A stretch of 64,000 bases of DNA from Ruminococcus callidus ATCC 27760 (GTDB lineage: Bacteria; Bacillota; Clostridia; Oscillospirales; Ruminococcaceae), in NCBI RefSeq assembly GCF_000468015.1, contig NZ_KI260408.1:28857-92856 (forward strand), read 5' to 3'. This document shows, piece after piece, positions 28,685 through 36,233 of this stretch. Every line of letters starts with the position of its first letter. Position 1 is the stretch's first letter. The position numbers and the translations under genes were made by a program. Below the pieces are notes generated by a model, which saw only the letters and a list, made by a program, of their open reading frames with translations, had not been told where the DNA came from and did not search any database.

Positions 28685-31510
28685 TTGCCACAGCGATACG
28701 CTGAAAAGGAGAAAAAGCCGGATCAAGCTATGTCACAGGATTACAATAAGACCTTAAATTTGCCTAAAACAGATTTTCCGATGCGTGGAAACCTGCCGAA
28801 GCGGGAACCTGACACTTTACAAAAGTGGGAAGACGAGGATCTGTATGAACAGATGATCGCCAAAAATGAAGGGAAGCCGAAGTACATTCTTCACGACGGC
28901 CCTCCGTATGCCAATGGTGAAATTCATCTGGGTACTGCTTTGAATAAGACACTGAAAGATTTCATTGTCAAGTATAAAAATATGAGTGGCTTCTGTGCAC
29001 CGTATGTGCCGGGCTGGGATACACATGGTTTGCCGATCGAACTGAAAGCAATGAAGTCTATCGGCGTAGAAAATGGTGCCATTCCGCCGGTAGAACTGCG
29101 AAAGCACTGCAAAGACTTCGCCATGATGCATGTCAAGAATCAGATGGCACAGTTCAAGCGTCTGGGCAGTCTGGGACATTACTGTGATCCGTACCTGACA
29201 CTGAAGCCGGAATATGAAGCACGTCAGGTCGAAGTATTCGGTGAAATGGCAAAACGCGGTTACATGTACAAGGGATTGAAGCCGGTTTACTGGTGCCCTG
29301 ACTGCAACACTGCACTGGCAGAAGCTGAAATCGAATACGAAAACGATCCTTGTTATTCTATCTATGTGAAATTTCAGGTGACTGACGACAAGGGTCTGTT
29401 TACAAAGCTGGGAATTGCCAAGGAACAGGTTTACTTTGTTATCTGGACAACCACAACATGGACCATTCCGGGCAACCTTGCAATTTGTGTGGGACCGTCT
29501 TATGACTACACACTGGTCAAGGTTGGCGAGGAATACTACTGCATGGCTGCGGAACTGGTTTCTGCAACAATGAAAGCAGCTGGTATTACCGAATACGAAA
29601 TGGTCGGCAGCTTCACTGGTGCAGAACTGGAACATGTCAAAACTAAGCACCCGTTGTATGACCGTCTTTCTCCGGTAATTGTCGGTGATCATGTAACATT
29701 GGAAAGCGGTACTGGCTGCGTTCATACTGCACCGGGCTATGGTGTAGAAGACTTTGAAGTCTGCAAGAACTATGACGACATTGGCATTCTGGTCTGCGTA
29801 GACGACAAGGGTCGCCAGACCAAGGAAGCCGGCGAGTTTGAAGGCATGGACACCGATGCGGCAAACCGTGCAATTGCTGCGAAGCTGACAGAAGTTGGTG
29901 CAATGCTGGCAACAGAAAAAATTGTCCACCAGTATCCGCACTGCTGGAGATGCCACAAACCGATCATTTACCGTGCAACAGAACAGTGGTTCTGCTCTGT
30001 TAACGGCTTTAAGGACGAAGCAATCAAAGCAATTGAAAATGTCAAGTGGATTCCTGCATGGGGAGAAGAACGCATCAAAGGCATGGTTCGTGACCGCAGC
30101 GACTGGTGTATTTCTCGTCAGCGTACTTGGGGCGTGCCGATTCCGATCATCTATTGCAAGGACTGCAAAAAGCCGATTGTCAATGATACCACTATTCGCG
30201 ACATTGCAGAATTGTTCCGCAAAGAGGGAGCAGATGCATGGTGGACAAAGGATCTTTCAGAGTTTCTTTCTCCGGAAGTACAGTGCGAATGCGGCTGTAA
30301 GGAATTCACCAAGGAATATGACATCATGGATGTATGGTTCGACAGTGGTGTTTCTCACAGTGCTGTCATGGAACAGTATGACTGCTTGCAGTGGCCGGCT
30401 GATCTGTATCTGGAAGGTGCAGACCAGTATCGTGGTTGGTTCCAGTCTTCTCTGCTGACTTCTGTCGTTTATAAGGGCAGTGCACCGTATAAGGCTGTCT
30501 GCACACACGGCTGGGTCGTTGACGGCGAAGGCAGAAAGATGTCGAAATCTTTGGGCAACGGCATTATGCCGGAAGAAATTGTCAAGAAATACGGTGCAGA
30601 CATTCTTCGTCTGTGGGTAGCTTCTTCCGATTATCACTCTGACATTCGTATTTCAGAGGGTATTTTGGGACAGTTGTCCGATGCCTATAAGAAGATCCGG
30701 AACACTGCCCGTTACATTCTGGGTAACTTGGGCAATGGTGACGGATTCCATCCGGATCGCGACAGCGTATCCGACGATCAGTTGCTGGAACTGGATCGCT
30801 GGGCACTGATGCGTCTGGATAACGTAATCCAAAAGGCACATGAGGGCTATGAAGCATTTGACTTCCACATCGTATTCCACGCAATCCATAACTACTGCAC
30901 CACTGATTTGTCCAATTTCTATCTGGACATCATCAAGGATCGTCTGTACTGCGAACCGGAAAATTCCGTGGCTCGTCGTGCAGCACAGACCACGATTTAT
31001 CGGATTTTGAGTGCACTGACTCGTCTGATCGCACCGATCCTCTCCTTTACCGCAGAAGAAATCTGGTCTTATCTGCCGCATGCTGCAAGCGATGATGCCA
31101 AGAGTGTATTCCTGAACGAAATGCCCAAGGCAAGCGGATTGACAGAAGATGCAGACTTTATGGCAAAGTGGGATCTGATCTATCAGACTCGTATGGAAGC
31201 TAATAAGGTTCTGGAAGAAAAGAGAAATGAAAAGCTGATCGGTAAATCACTGGAAGCCAAGGTGACAATCGCTGTTGCAGATGATGCTCAGTATACAGTA
31301 TTGTCAGAAGCTGCTGACATTCTGGCAAAGGTGCTGATCGTATCTGTTGTTTCTGTTGTAAAGGCAGAATCCGGAGAAACTACCTATACAGTAGAACGTG
31401 CCGCTGGTGAAAAGTGCGAACGCTGCTGGATGTATCTGGACAGTGTTGGCAAGAATGCTGCACACCCAACACTCTGTGCACGTTGTGCTTCTGTTGTAGA
31501 TCAGCTGTAA
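28685..31510 (+). CDS. ileS: Isoleucyl-tRNA synthetase
   Basis: 941 residues if translation starts at the TTG at 28685, which has AAAGGAG six bases upstream. An ATG at 28730 gives MSQDYNKTLNLPKTDFPMRG, the usual N-terminus of the family, but its nearest ribosome site is 18 bases away; either may be used. Motifs: GPPYANGEIHLGTALNK (HIGH-like), the editing domain, GRKMSKSLGNG (KMSKS), and a C-terminal zinc finger CERCWMY...CARC. No T-box leader precedes it; the gene follows divIVA directly. Confidence 0.96.
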   Translation: MPQRYAEKEKKPDQAMSQDYNKTLNLPKTDFPMRGNLPKREPDTLQKWEDEDLYEQMIAKNEGKPKYILHDGPPYANGEIHLGTALNKTLKDFIVKYKNMSGFCAPYVPGWDTHGLPIELKAMKSIGVENGAIPPVELRKHCKDFAMMHVKNQMAQFKRLGSLGHYCDPYLTLKPEYEARQVEVFGEMAKRGYMYKGLKPVYWCPDCNTALAEAEIEYENDPCYSIYVKFQVTDDKGLFTKLGIAKEQVYFVIWTTTTWTIPGNLAICVGPSYDYTLVKVGEEYYCMAAELVSATMKAAGITEYEMVGSFTGAELEHVKTKHPLYDRLSPVIVGDHVTLESGTGCVHTAPGYGVEDFEVCKNYDDIGILVCVDDKGRQTKEAGEFEGMDTDAANRAIAAKLTEVGAMLATEKIVHQYPHCWRCHKPIIYRATEQWFCSVNGFKDEAIKAIENVKWIPAWGEERIKGMVRDRSDWCISRQRTWGVPIPIIYCKDCKKPIVNDTTIRDIAELFRKEGADAWWTKDLSEFLSPEVQCECGCKEFTKEYDIMDVWFDSGVSHSAVMEQYDCLQWPADLYLEGADQYRGWFQSSLLTSVVYKGSAPYKAVCTHGWVVDGEGRKMSKSLGNGIMPEEIVKKYGADILRLWVASSDYHSDIRISEGILGQLSDAYKKIRNTARYILGNLGNGDGFHPDRDSVSDDQLLELDRWALMRLDNVIQKAHEGYEAFDFHIVFHAIHNYCTTDLSNFYLDIIKDRLYCEPENSVARRAAQTTIYRILSALTRLIAPILSFTAEEIWSYLPHAASDDAKSVFLNEMPKASGLTEDADFMAKWDLIYQTRMEANKVLEEKRNEKLIGKSLEAKVTIAVADDAQYTVLSEAADILAKVLIVSVVSVVKAESGETTYTVERAAGEKCERCWMYLDSVGKNAAHPTLCARCASVVDQL

Positions 31511-31528
31511 TCGGGAAAGGATGTATTT

Positions 31529-32041
31529 GTGCTGATTGCAGCCTTAATCGGAATTATCTTGCTGACCGCAGCAGATCAACTGATCAAATACTGGGTCGTT
31601 CAGGATTTGAAACCAGTCGGAAGTGTACCGTTTCTGCACATTGGCGATCATAAAATTCTGGATTTGACTTATCTGGAAAATAACGGAGCTGTTTTCAGTA
31701 GTTTTGCCGGCATGCGTTGGCTGCTAGTGGGAACAACGGTGATTCTGATGGCGTTTTGTGCTTACTGGCTGGTACGTCATGGAAAAAAATCCAAGCTGCT
31801 GACAGTCAGCTTGACCTTGATTCTAAGCGGCGGTCTGGGCAATTTAATTGACCGACTGTTTCGCGGTGGTCTGGTGGTAGACTATCTGGAAGTGAAGCTG
31901 TTTCACTTTGCCGTGTTTAATTTTGCAGATTGTTGCGTGGTAATTGGCGTTGTTTTGTTTGCAATTTACTTTTTGTTTGTGGAACCAAAACTCAATTCCA
32001 AAGCCAAGGCAACAGCTGAGGGAGAACAGAAAAATGCCTGA
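31529..32041 (+). CDS. lspA: Lipoprotein signal peptidase
   Basis: 170 residues, GTG start at 31529 with AAAGGA eight bases upstream. Four membrane helices. The aspartyl protease motifs are LENNGAVFSSF, GGLGNLIDRLFRGGLVVDY and FNFADCCVVIG, with the two catalytic aspartates. It cleaves prolipoproteins such as the isomerase encoded at 5835. It overlaps the next gene by eight bases. Confidence 0.95.
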   Translation: MLIAALIGIILLTAADQLIKYWVVQDLKPVGSVPFLHIGDHKILDLTYLENNGAVFSSFAGMRWLLVGTTVILMAFCAYWLVRHGKKSKLLTVSLTLILSGGLGNLIDRLFRGGLVVDYLEVKLFHFAVFNFADCCVVIGVVLFAIYFLFVEPKLNSKAKATAEGEQKNA

Positions 32042-32948
32042 AACTTTGTCTTTTTGTGTGCCTGCGGAAGCGGACGGAGAACGTCTGGACAAATGGCTTT
32101 CCGGACAGGAGAGTCTTGCGATGACGCGTTCCGCCCTGCAAGTTCGTATGGAACACGGTGATGTGACAGTAAATGGCAAAAAAGTTCCGAAAAATTATCG
32201 GCAAAAAGCAGGGGATCAAGTTTTGGTGCAGCTGCCGGAACCAGAGCCGCTGGAATTGCAGCCGGAAAATATCCCGCTGGATATTGTCTATGAAGATGAT
32301 GACTTACTTGTGGTGAACAAACCCAAGGGCATGGTTGTACATCCGGCTCCCGGACACGCGACAGGAACGCTGGTACATGCACTATTGTATCATTGCGGAG
32401 ATCGGCTTTCCAGCATCAATGGCATAATTCGCCCCGGAATCGTGCACCGTATCGATCGTTTTACAAGCGGCTTGCTAATGGTGGCAAAAAATGATATGGC
32501 ACATCAGTCGTTATCGGCACAAATTGCCGCCCATTCATTTACAAGAGAATATCAGGCGGTGGCAATGGGACATTTTCGCGAAGCAGAAGGGACGATTTCT
32601 GCTCCGATCGGACGACATCCGGTAGACCGCAAAAAAATGTGTGTCACAGAAAAAAATTCCAAACCTGCTACAACGCACTATACTGTGATTGCAGAATATC
32701 CCCGTGCCACGCATTTACGGCTGCGATTGGAAACCGGACGCACACACCAGATTCGAGTACATTTAGCGTATTTGGGTCACCCGATTCTGGGTGATGATGT
32801 CTATGGAAAAGCATTTCCCGGAATCGAAGGGCAGTGTCTTCATGCTGCCAAAATCGGATTTATTCATCCGTCTACAGGGCAGTATCTGGAGTTTGAAAGT
32901 CCTTTGCCGGAATATTTTGAAAAGGTACTTCGAAAACTGAAATCCTGA
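32034..32948 (+). CDS. RluD-family 23S rRNA pseudouridine synthase
   Basis: 304 residues from the ATG at 32034. An N-terminal S4 domain (RLDKWLSGQESLAMTRSALQ) precedes the synthase domain with the catalytic aspartate in IVHRIDRFTSGLLMVAKN and the RLETGRTHQIRVHLAYLGHP motif. The lspA-rluD arrangement is the standard one in Firmicutes. The exact rRNA site is not deducible; RluD-type enzymes usually act on helix 69. Confidence 0.93.
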   Translation: MPETLSFCVPAEADGERLDKWLSGQESLAMTRSALQVRMEHGDVTVNGKKVPKNYRQKAGDQVLVQLPEPEPLELQPENIPLDIVYEDDDLLVVNKPKGMVVHPAPGHATGTLVHALLYHCGDRLSSINGIIRPGIVHRIDRFTSGLLMVAKNDMAHQSLSAQIAAHSFTREYQAVAMGHFREAEGTISAPIGRHPVDRKKMCVTEKNSKPATTHYTVIAEYPRATHLRLRLETGRTHQIRVHLAYLGHPILGDDVYGKAFPGIEGQCLHAAKIGFIHPSTGQYLEFESPLPEYFEKVLRKLKS

Positions 32949-32961
32949 AAGGGTGATTTTG

Positions 32962-34620
32962 ATGCAGTCTTTGGAAAATACCATGCTTATTACGGACCTG
33001 GACGGTACATTGCTGCCAGCCAGCAAAGAGATTTCTGTGGCAGATGCAGCAGCAATTTCCCAGTTCCGTGCAAAAGGTGGCAAATTCGCAATTGCAACTG
33101 GAAGAACGTTGCAGGCGGCTCAGCGATATTTGAAAAAGCTGCAGCCCAATATTCCTGTGATATTGTTCAACGGAGCAGCTATTTATGATCCGGTAGCAGA
33201 AAAGTGGCTTTACACAGAAGAATTGCCGCCAGAAGCCGTATCGATTACCCGACAAGTGTTAGAAGCATTTCCGGACGTTTCGGCGGAGATTCTCCGCACA
33301 GACGGCACCTATGTTTCCAGAATGACACCTTATGAAAAGGAGCATCTGGAGATCTGTCAGGTGGAACCCATTCTGGCAATGCCGGAGGAAATTCCGCATG
33401 GTTGGCTGAAAGTGCTGTTTGCAATTGCACCCGAACGAATGCCTGATTTGATTGCCTATTTTCAAGAACAAAACTGGACGTGTGCAGATTTTGTACAGTC
33501 TGAAGCACGTTTTTATGAAATGCTGCCGAAAGGCGTTACTAAAGGGAGTGCCCTTCGGCGGTATCGCACCATATGCGGTGCGGAAAGCTGGCATATTGTG
33601 GCGGCAGGAGATTTTGACAACGATCTGGATATGCTTCGCGTAGCAGACACCAGTGCCTGTCCGTCTAATGCACAGCCCTGCATTAAAGAAATTGCCAATA
33701 TACAGTTGATGCATTCCTGTGAAGAAAACGCGATTGCAGAATTGATTTATCGTCTTTCGAAATCATTGGAGGTTCATAACATGGATGAAATGACCAAGAA
33801 AAAATTGCAGGCAACTGCCTGCCGTATTCGTATGGGTGTTATTGAAGGCACCTATCACGCAAAGTCCGGTCACCCGGGCGGCTCTCTCTCGATTTGTGAT
33901 ACACTGACTTATCTGTATTTTGCAAAGATGCACGTTGACCCGAAGAATCCGGAAATGGCAGACCGTGATCGTCTGGTGCTTTCCAAAGGACACTGTGCAC
34001 CGGCTCTGTATTCCACACTGGCAGAACGTGGATTTTTCCCGAAAGAAGAACTGCAATCTCTGCGTCATATCGGCGCACTTTTGCAGGGGCACCCGTGTAT
34101 TCATATTCCGGGCGTAGATATGTCCAGCGGTTCTCTGGGACAGGGCATTTCCGCAGCCTGCGGCATGGCACTGGCAGGAAAAATGGACAATGCTGCTTAT
34201 AAGGTTTACACCATTCTGGGTGATGGCGAAATCGAAGAAGGACAGGTTTGGGAAGCTGCAATGTTCGCAAACCAGTATCATCTGGACAATCTGGTAGCAA
34301 TTGTAGACAACAACGGTTTGCAGATCGACGGCAAGCTTTCCGAAGTTTGCTCGCCGGAGCCGATTCCGGAAAAGTTTGAAGCGTTCGGCTGGCATGTCAT
34401 TCGTATGGACGCACACGATTTCGATGCAATTGATGCTGCAATGCAGGAAGCTGAAACAATCGTAGGCAAGCCGGTTGCGATCATTCAGAAAAGTGTCAAG
34501 GGCAAGGGTGTGTCCTTTATGGAAAATCAGGTCGGCTGGCACGGCAAAGCACCGAATCAGGCAGAGTATGAACAGGCAATGGCTGAACTGACAGCCCAGC
34601 TGAAGGAACTGGAGGGTTAA
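32962..34620 (+). CDS. HAD phosphatase fused in frame to transketolase N-terminal half
   Basis: 552 residues from the ATG at 32962 (AAAGGG eight bases upstream). Residues 1 to about 270 are a Cof-type HAD hydrolase: TDLDGTLLP (nucleophile Asp12), ATGRT, LPKGVTKGSALRR, and AAGDFDNDLDML. Residues 274-552 are the N-half of a split transketolase. No stop separates them: the junction reads RLSKSLEVHN then the transketolase methionine. The codon TCA at 33763-33765 would become a stop with one base change, and an internal GGAGG lies just after it. A stop-loss fusion plus separate internal initiation is the likeliest reading; a sequencing error cannot be excluded. Confidence 0.8.
   Translation: MQSLENTMLITDLDGTLLPASKEISVADAAAISQFRAKGGKFAIATGRTLQAAQRYLKKLQPNIPVILFNGAAIYDPVAEKWLYTEELPPEAVSITRQVLEAFPDVSAEILRTDGTYVSRMTPYEKEHLEICQVEPILAMPEEIPHGWLKVLFAIAPERMPDLIAYFQEQNWTCADFVQSEARFYEMLPKGVTKGSALRRYRTICGAESWHIVAAGDFDNDLDMLRVADTSACPSNAQPCIKEIANIQLMHSCEENAIAELIYRLSKSLEVHNMDEMTKKKLQATACRIRMGVIEGTYHAKSGHPGGSLSICDTLTYLYFAKMHVDPKNPEMADRDRLVLSKGHCAPALYSTLAERGFFPKEELQSLRHIGALLQGHPCIHIPGVDMSSGSLGQGISAACGMALAGKMDNAAYKVYTILGDGEIEEGQVWEAAMFANQYHLDNLVAIVDNNGLQIDGKLSEVCSPEPIPEKFEAFGWHVIRMDAHDFDAIDAAMQEAETIVGKPVAIIQKSVKGKGVSFMENQVGWHGKAPNQAEYEQAMAELTAQLKELEG
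33781..34620 (+). CDS. Transketolase, N-terminal subunit (internal start)
   Basis: 279 residues from the ATG at 33781, served by GGAGG (33768-33772) eight bases upstream and within the frame of the HAD fusion. The start MDEMTKKKLQATACRIRMGV is that of stand-alone split transketolases. The thiamine diphosphate site GDGEIEEGQVWEAAM...NN and HAKSGHPGGSLS are present. It pairs with the C-half three bases downstream. Together they move two-carbon units between sugar phosphates in the non-oxidative pentose phosphate pathway. Confidence 0.9.
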   Translation: MDEMTKKKLQATACRIRMGVIEGTYHAKSGHPGGSLSICDTLTYLYFAKMHVDPKNPEMADRDRLVLSKGHCAPALYSTLAERGFFPKEELQSLRHIGALLQGHPCIHIPGVDMSSGSLGQGISAACGMALAGKMDNAAYKVYTILGDGEIEEGQVWEAAMFANQYHLDNLVAIVDNNGLQIDGKLSEVCSPEPIPEKFEAFGWHVIRMDAHDFDAIDAAMQEAETIVGKPVAIIQKSVKGKGVSFMENQVGWHGKAPNQAEYEQAMAELTAQLKELEG

Positions 34621-34623
34621 ACG

Positions 34624-35574
34624 ATGGCAGAATTGCAGAAAAAAGCAACAAGAGAAAGCTATGGTGAGGCACTTCGTGATCTCGCTGACAAATATCCGGA
34701 ACTGGTCGTACTGGATGCCGATCTGGCTGCTGCCACAAAAACAGGCATTTTTAAGAAAGCTTATCCGGAGCGTTTCTTCGACTGCGGTATTGCAGAAGCA
34801 AACATGATGGGCGTTGCTGCCGGACTTTCCACGGCAGGAAAGATCCCGTTTGCCAGCACATTTGCCATGTTTGCTGCCGGCAGAGCATTCGAAATCGTGC
34901 GGAACTCTATCGGTTATCCGCACCTGAATGTAAAAATCGGTGCAACTCATGCTGGTATTTCCGTTGGTGAAGACGGTGCCACACATCAGTGCAACGAAGA
35001 TATTGCACTGATGCGAACCATTCCGGGTATGACAATTTTGAATCCGGCAGACGATGTAGAAGCAAAGGCTGCTGTAGAAGCTGCCATTCAGTATGAGGGA
35101 CCGGTTTACTTGCGATTTGGCAGACTGGCAACTCCGATCTTCAACGATGCTGCAACTTATAAATTCAAAATTGGTAAAGGCATTACACTGCGGGAAGGCA
35201 CAGATGTAACTTTGGTTGCTACTGGTCTGATGGTATGGGAATCCATGAAGGCAGCAGAACTGCTGGAAGCCGAAGGAATCCACGCTCGTGTACTGAATAT
35301 TCACACCATTAAGCCGCTGGACACTGAACTGATCTGTAAGGCTGCTTCAGAAACTGGTCTGCTGGTAACTGTAGAGGAACACAGTATTATCGGTGGTCTG
35401 GGCGGTGCTGTTGCAGAAGCAGTTACTGCATGCTGTCCGGTTCCGGTTGTTCGCATTGGCGTGAACGATGAGTTCGGTCATTCTGGTCCGGCTGTAGAGC
35501 TGCTGAAGGAATTTGGTCTGTGTGCAGAAAACATTGCCGCAGTTGCCAAAAAGGCAGTTACCGAAAAGAAGTAA
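34624..35574 (+). CDS. Transketolase, C-terminal subunit
   Basis: 316 residues. Pyrimidine-binding domain with DADLAAATKT, FDCGIAEANMMGVAAGLS, the glutamate and phenylalanine of the TPP site, GATHAGISVGEDGATHQ, and the C-terminal domain with VEEHSIIGGLGGAVAEAV. It is the partner of the preceding N-half; split transketolases are frequent in Clostridia. The transcript ends at 35597-35644. Confidence 0.93.
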   Translation: MAELQKKATRESYGEALRDLADKYPELVVLDADLAAATKTGIFKKAYPERFFDCGIAEANMMGVAAGLSTAGKIPFASTFAMFAAGRAFEIVRNSIGYPHLNVKIGATHAGISVGEDGATHQCNEDIALMRTIPGMTILNPADDVEAKAAVEAAIQYEGPVYLRFGRLATPIFNDAATYKFKIGKGITLREGTDVTLVATGLMVWESMKAAELLEAEGIHARVLNIHTIKPLDTELICKAASETGLLVTVEEHSIIGGLGGAVAEAVTACCPVPVVRIGVNDEFGHSGPAVELLKEFGLCAENIAAVAKKAVTEKK

Positions 35575-35596
35575 TTTTTTCATAAGTACACATAGG

Positions 35597-35644
35597 ATAC
35601 AAAAGCAGGCGTTTCTATTTTTGTGAGAACACCTGCTTTTGTAT
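35597..35644 (+). terminator. Terminator after the transketolase genes
   Basis: ATACAAAAGCAGG (35597-35609) and CCTGCTTTTGTAT (35632-35644) form 13 perfect pairs; the T-rich part is within the stem (A-T base), a bidirectional-looking hairpin. Confidence 0.75.
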
Positions 35645-35675
35645 TAGACAGATGATGATTGGAGGGAGGACAGAA

Positions 35676-36233
35676 ATGCAAAATAAACTGCAAACAATTG
35701 AAAAATTGTTCCTCTATTTTCTCATGGCAGCAATTATTGGCTGGTGCTATGAAGTGTTTTTAGAAGTTGTTGTCTATCGTTGGGGGTTTCAAAACCGAGG
35801 CGTACTGTTTGGCCCGTATTGTCCGGTATATGGAGTCGGCATGCTGGCATTTTTGCTCTGCTTTGGAAAATTTGCAAAAATGCAACTATCATGGCGTGTA
35901 CGTTGGGCAAGACCGATTCTGATTTTTCTGGGTTGTGGGGCAGTTGCCACATTGATCGAATTGGCGGTCAGCTATCTGTTGGAATGGACAACTGGAAGCT
36001 GGCCATGGCAAACCTATGCAGACTATGCAATCAATTTTCAGGCAAGAGTTGCTCTTTCCCCGTCTGTTCGTTTTGGCATCGGCGGCGTTCTGTTTTTGTA
36101 TCTGCTTCGCCCGCTGTTTGCCAAAATTACCGGACTGATGTCGGAAAAGGTATTGCACGTAGTGAGCATCACAGCAGCAGTTATAATGGGACTGGATTTG
36201 ATTTGTACCGTCCTTTTCAAATTGTTTTTGTGA
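35676..36233 (+). CDS. Multi-spanning membrane protein, putative ABC-transporter type IV family
   Basis: 185 residues from the ATG at 35676 with GGAGGGAGG upstream. Five or so membrane helices. The N-terminal FYFLMAAIIGWCYEVFLE-like region and GVLFGPYCPVYGVGML match the family called putative ABC-transporter type IV, although no ATPase is adjacent and real transport is unproven. Monocistronic or paired with the next gene 46 bases on. Confidence 0.75.
   Translation: MQNKLQTIEKLFLYFLMAAIIGWCYEVFLEVVVYRWGFQNRGVLFGPYCPVYGVGMLAFLLCFGKFAKMQLSWRVRWARPILIFLGCGAVATLIELAVSYLLEWTTGSWPWQTYADYAINFQARVALSPSVRFGIGGVLFLYLLRPLFAKITGLMSEKVLHVVSITAAVIMGLDLICTVLFKLFL

Follow-up and report, generated by a model that had tools for sequence, protein, structure and literature searches.

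One open reading frame joins a HAD phosphatase domain to a split transketolase subunit in Ruminococcus callidus, probably after a one-base deletion at the gene junction

The window, the whole 64,000-nucleotide stretch of Ruminococcus callidus ATCC 27760 DNA that was analysed, contains at 32962–34620 on the plus strand a single stop-free frame of 552 codons which ends in one terminal stop on translation. In this frame a complete HAD phosphatase domain (residues 8–262) is followed by a complete transketolase N-half (residues 274–552). The reading we favor, at a probability of about 0.68, is that the loss of one base within the final codons of the HAD gene fused two members of a conserved gene row, and that the HAD-TktN chain is a tolerated by-product while free TktN is still made. 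Within this reading, the direction of change, the manufacture of both products and neutrality are what we infer. An earlier note on this DNA had reported the lack of a stop between the two complete units, which the 552-codon frame and the Pfam and TIGR00099 matches bear out.

The frame lies in a row of plus-strand genes. Its upstream neighbor is an RluA-family pseudouridine synthase (rluD-like; TIGR00005, 323 bits) listed at 31944–32948, the real start of which may be further downstream; an rluD-like gene is present in the corresponding regions of all 10 relatives compared. The Cof-type HAD-IIB phosphatase domain, identified by Hydrolase_3, TIGR00099 and invariant residues, occupies 32962–33759 (fused residues 1–266), and a GTG at 32953 is a mechanically possible upstream opening that would give a product of 555 amino acids. 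The seam (33750–33780), delimited by the junction alignment, the comparison of 15 genomes and the translation of 33759–33779, includes the tktN ribosome-binding site GGAGG (33768–33772), 8 nucleotides upstream of ATG 33781. The thiamine diphosphate binding N-terminal subunit of transketolase, tktN, extends from this ATG to 34620 and encodes 279 amino acids. The C-terminal subunit, tktC, is a separate gene at 34624–35574 with the Pfam domains Transket_pyr and Transketolase_C. The retention of GGAGG and the in-frame ATG and the presence of an adjoining C-half are thus as the earlier note described them. Because each half is genuine coding sequence, chance does not account for the long frame; the unexplained part is only the seam of about eight codons (residues 266–273). 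By our own rough estimate a random seam of about eight codons would join two genes in one frame without a stop in roughly a quarter of cases, which makes comparison with relatives the better test.

The HAD domain matches the full Pfam Hydrolase_3 profile (fused residues 9–262, 146.4 bits) and the NCBIfam Cof-subfamily model TIGR00099 (139.1 bits against a cut-off of 137; residues 8–262 over model positions 1–256 of 256). Cof-type HAD-IIB phosphatases are characterized by a DxDGT motif, a conserved Lys and a GDxxND motif. All three are found in the domain, where D12, D14, T16, K194, G216, D217, N220 and D221 are invariant in an alignment of 32 rows. In a four-protein tree the R. callidus branch (0.10) is not long, so the HAD domain is without sign of decay. 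A search of viral contigs with the HAD protein pattern matched two stretches, neither coding for a relative.

The transketolase half matches Pfam Transketolase_N over fused residues 286–541 (187.3 bits, profile positions 6–273 of 334), and its best solved relative is 6yak_AAA, the N-terminal component of a split-chain transketolase (TktN residues 6–272, E 1e-89). The N- and C-halves are separate in all 114 distinct loci of the wider set described below, and in the class sample the majority of tktN matches occupy open frames of about 280–300 amino acids; a half-transketolase gene is therefore, as judged from these sequences, the normal state here. With its thiamine diphosphate binding domain and the separate C-half adjoining, TktN has the features of a split N-subunit. 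It also has a predicted start of its own: GGAGG and the ATG that it precedes are present in all 15 genus genomes with the pair. This conserved ribosome site suggests that free TktN should still be produced, and the HAD-TktN chain is probably made as well. TktN has no second copy in the R. callidus assembly, where the sole further transketolase-like match has 30% identity, so activity must be provided by free TktN or by a working fused TktN.

Sixteen genomes of the genus were searched, including that of R. callidus ATCC 27760 (G000). The latter is an assembly of 3.10 Mb in 226 contigs, with 97.8% completeness and 1.7% contamination, and is larger than the 15 other genus genomes (about 1.0–2.6 Mb). 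Matches were obtained in 15 of the 16, G000 included; the genome without a match, G004, is 56% complete. Each of the 14 matching relatives carries HAD immediately ahead of tktN in the same orientation, which makes the order HAD-tktN-tktC the norm of the genus (14 of the 15 other genomes have the HAD-tktN pair), and in all 14 the HAD gene has its own stop. The two genes overlap by 1–10 nucleotides in five relatives (G013, G015, G010, G011 and G001), and HAD stops 13–54 nucleotides upstream of tktN in the remaining nine. In G014, G005 and G002 HAD and tktN share one frame, with two, one and one in-frame stops between them, respectively. The fusion is thus present in one of the 15 genus genomes that hold the pair. 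The spacing of the two genes within the genus, from a 10-nucleotide overlap to a 54-nucleotide gap, offers a natural series for studies of translational coupling.

The species with junctions most like that of the window are G015 and G013. In both, the HAD frame crosses the tktN ribosome site and ends at a TGA, 8 nucleotides inside tktN and in a different frame. The sequence GAAATCAT(T/G)GGAGGTTCA is common to the window, G015 and G013, and the text up to the ATG is closely similar apart from one base fewer in the window just upstream of this sequence. The alignment places the missing base near 33755–33760, just before AAATC, its exact place being ambiguous. Loss of one base here would have moved HAD into the tktN frame. 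The former HAD frame of the window can still be read at 33759–33779 as EIIGGS followed by TAA (33777–33779), and the HAD tails of the similar species start in the same way (EIIGGS in G015, EIMGGS in G013). The overlap in another frame and the one missing base make a deletion appear a simpler cause than a stop loss at 33763–33765. The four-protein tree groups G000 with G015, G013, G012, G014 and G005 (100/99), but neither this tree nor a three-protein tree without HAD settles its position inside this clade; in the HAD+TktN tree its partners are G012, G014 and G005 (80/86) instead of G015 and G013. We therefore infer the direction of change from the junction text alone.

No other signal stands out at the seam: the folding z-score of the RNA is -1.25, nothing special, and viral contigs contain no exact match to a 25-base seam pattern. 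A promoter and terminator scan of 31500–35700 gave none on the plus strand and fewer of each than in shuffled sequences. Two overlapping terminator-like matches at 33807–33823 on the minus strand, near the tktN start, are probably due to chance, as the scan found fewer than its shuffles.

These observations would fit the following course of events. In the conserved row of rluD-like gene, HAD phosphatase, tktN and tktC, an ancestor resembling G015 and G013 would have had a HAD gene crossing the tktN ribosome site and ending 8 nucleotides inside tktN in the other frame. A one-base deletion in the last HAD codons would slide HAD into the tktN frame and remove its stop. Ribosomes starting at HAD would then make the 552-residue HAD-TktN chain, and those loading at the retained GGAGG and ATG 33781 would make the normal 279-residue TktN, which would pair with TktC as a split transketolase. 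Both domains would fold in the fused chain, a tolerated by-product rather than a new bifunctional enzyme, though one that may impede pairing with TktC.

The search was extended to 120 loci (80 from named genomes, 25 from the family and 15 from the genus), of which 114 remained after removal of six duplicates; the set is biased, since similarity to the fused query decided the ranking of loci. HAD is found upstream on the same strand in 89 of the 114: one is fused (the window), six overlap, and the gap is 0–60 nucleotides in 55, 61–200 in eight and more than 200 in 19. In the other 25 no HAD was found in the upstream DNA examined, which together with the 19 wide gaps shows that the HAD-tktN pairing is not strict. 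Close pairs, overlapping or no more than 60 nucleotides apart, number 62 distinct cases in this set, and the fusion is one of them. Samples of 297 family genomes, of which 294 gave matches at E 0.001, and of 148 class genomes, of which 113 did so at E 1e-60, both of which count G000 and share some members, were also searched. Up to four candidates per genome were scored in the family and weak matches were dropped from the listing, in which a fused frame would be expected high up. Among the matches listed, no other stop-free match over residues 1–552 was found in the 297 family genomes, and none was found among those listed for the 148 class genomes. Long tktN open frames in G042, G152, G221, G099, G200 and G306 were inspected as candidate fusions, and none is one; HAD was found in five of the six, and each time its ORF terminates before tktN. 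The fusion is therefore not conserved across lineages and is confined to G000 among the matches listed for 16 genus, 297 family and 148 class genomes, in agreement with the recent origin that the earlier note had proposed. Since the relatives examined lack it, the fusion is probably a neutral accident of this one species, or else a sequencing error, and not a new enzyme. Among the titles listed in literature searches on HAD, transketolase and fusion and on transketolase subunits in Ruminococcus, to which this statement is limited, none names a HAD-transketolase fusion.

A sequencing or assembly indel is the strongest of the alternatives, though we consider it doubtful. The real genome would then be one base longer near 33755–33760, HAD would end at the TAA of 33777–33779, a single nucleotide upstream of the ATG of tktN, and the fusion would not exist. 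A single base accounts for the whole difference, and the alternative-frame tail, EIIGGS and a stop right before ATG 33781, is a normal operon layout whose residues begin like the tails of G015 and G013. The fusion is also unique in every set searched and is seen in one assembly of the species, a draft of 226 contigs. Against an indel, the longest run at the seam is merely three T, and a frameshift check of about 292 kb of G000 stretches against about 379 kb from five relatives points to an assembly with few such errors. Among 788 ORFs of the relatives of at least 100 amino acids, 176 found an ortholog-like counterpart in G000, with a frame change flagged in one; the flagged case is a minus-strand antisense read opposite intact plus-strand DivIVA and YlmH-like genes, and no gene is broken there. 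With coverage of at least 60% in one frame, the matches made up 83 distinct intervals (72 on the window's contig, the remaining 11 on one other contig; some may be shadow ORFs), and no genuine frameshift was found in their 66,921 bases, which suggests that frameshift errors are rare in the G000 assembly outside the last codons of genes, where the check is blind. In the reverse direction 67 of 702 G000 ORFs were matched in relatives, and two (106 and 139 amino acids) showed frame changes in the relatives. The earlier note had held that relatives with a clear stop and identical flanks would indicate an assembly error. The relatives agree with this in part, through clear stops in 14 of 14 and closely similar junction text in G015 and G013. 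This leaves some weight on an error, and the frameshift check makes it less likely.

A real deletion could also have created a newborn two-product gene, the merged overlap supplying both tethered and free TktN and thus a mixed transketolase with zero to two phosphatase domains in this one species. This is unlikely. AlphaFold, supplied with alignment rows from 31 relatives that were read through their stops, models the fused chain as two folded domains (mean pLDDT 87.9) whose relative placement is not confident (pTM 0.53). Helices 257–270 and 276–300 flank a short linker with pLDDT below 50 at 270–272; values below 50 also occur within TktN at 369–372 and 374–376. In the study of the C. hydrogenoformans transketolase the His tag was reportedly at the N-terminus. 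An active alpha2-beta2 tetramer of that split enzyme was reconstituted from two His-tagged purified chains (PMC7661550), and the purification of its halves in tagged form hints by analogy that an extension on TktN may be tolerable.

Loss of a stop by substitution at or beside 33763–33765, the cause proposed in the earlier note, is highly improbable. The codon there, TCA, is indeed one base from TGA or TAA, and in G014, G005 and G002 only in-frame stops part HAD from tktN, that of HAD in G014 and G002 lying one codon upstream of 33763–33765 in an ungapped count from the ATG. In none of five near relatives, however, does the aligned codon read as a stop, the most similar junctions (G015 and G013) are in another frame, and an ancestor like G014, which has an additional second in-frame TAG between the genes, would need two stop losses. 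Just as improbable is a bifunctional protein kept by selection, with the phosphatase anchored to transketolase and able, for instance, to clear stray sugar phosphate on the spot: HAD and TktN retain the positions invariant in relatives, both fold in the AlphaFold model, and the place of HAD directly before tktN throughout the genus makes a pathway link conceivable, but the fusion occurs in one species only, the pairing is loose in the wider set, and no result points to a shared reaction. The suggestion that the link could be functional thus found no evidence, and in all relatives that carry the pair the HAD gene ends in its own stop.

The deletion remains the preferred reading, and under it the locus is a minor evolutionary oddity in an otherwise ordinary operon. 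If real, it would be a snapshot of overlapping operon genes becoming a fused protein through one base lost in the overlap, with the old internal start retained as a safety net during fusion. The case illustrates that an in-frame fusion can arise by an indel in an overlap and not only by stop loss; enzymology gains little from it unless the two domains prove to act together.

Overlapping, translationally coupled gene pairs are a known class (PMC10666635), and the 1–10-nucleotide overlaps of HAD and tktN in five of 14 genus relatives resemble them. The frames here, unlike those of coupled pairs, are merged, and an internal in-frame start would replace termination and reinitiation. Compared with Cof-type HAD-IIB hydrolases (TIGR00099; solved examples 1rkq, YidA, and 1nf2), the HAD domain is complete, scores above the cut-off and retains the invariant positions; it differs in that its C-terminus continues into TktN, and its phosphatase role is predicted. 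A candidate split transketolase has been described in Faecalicatena, a sulfoquinovose degrader (PMC11659671). The split transketolase of C. hydrogenoformans likewise has separate N- and C-halves, which there form an active alpha2-beta2 enzyme (PMC7661550); in contrast to that enzyme, TktN here can also bear a whole HAD domain at its N-terminus.
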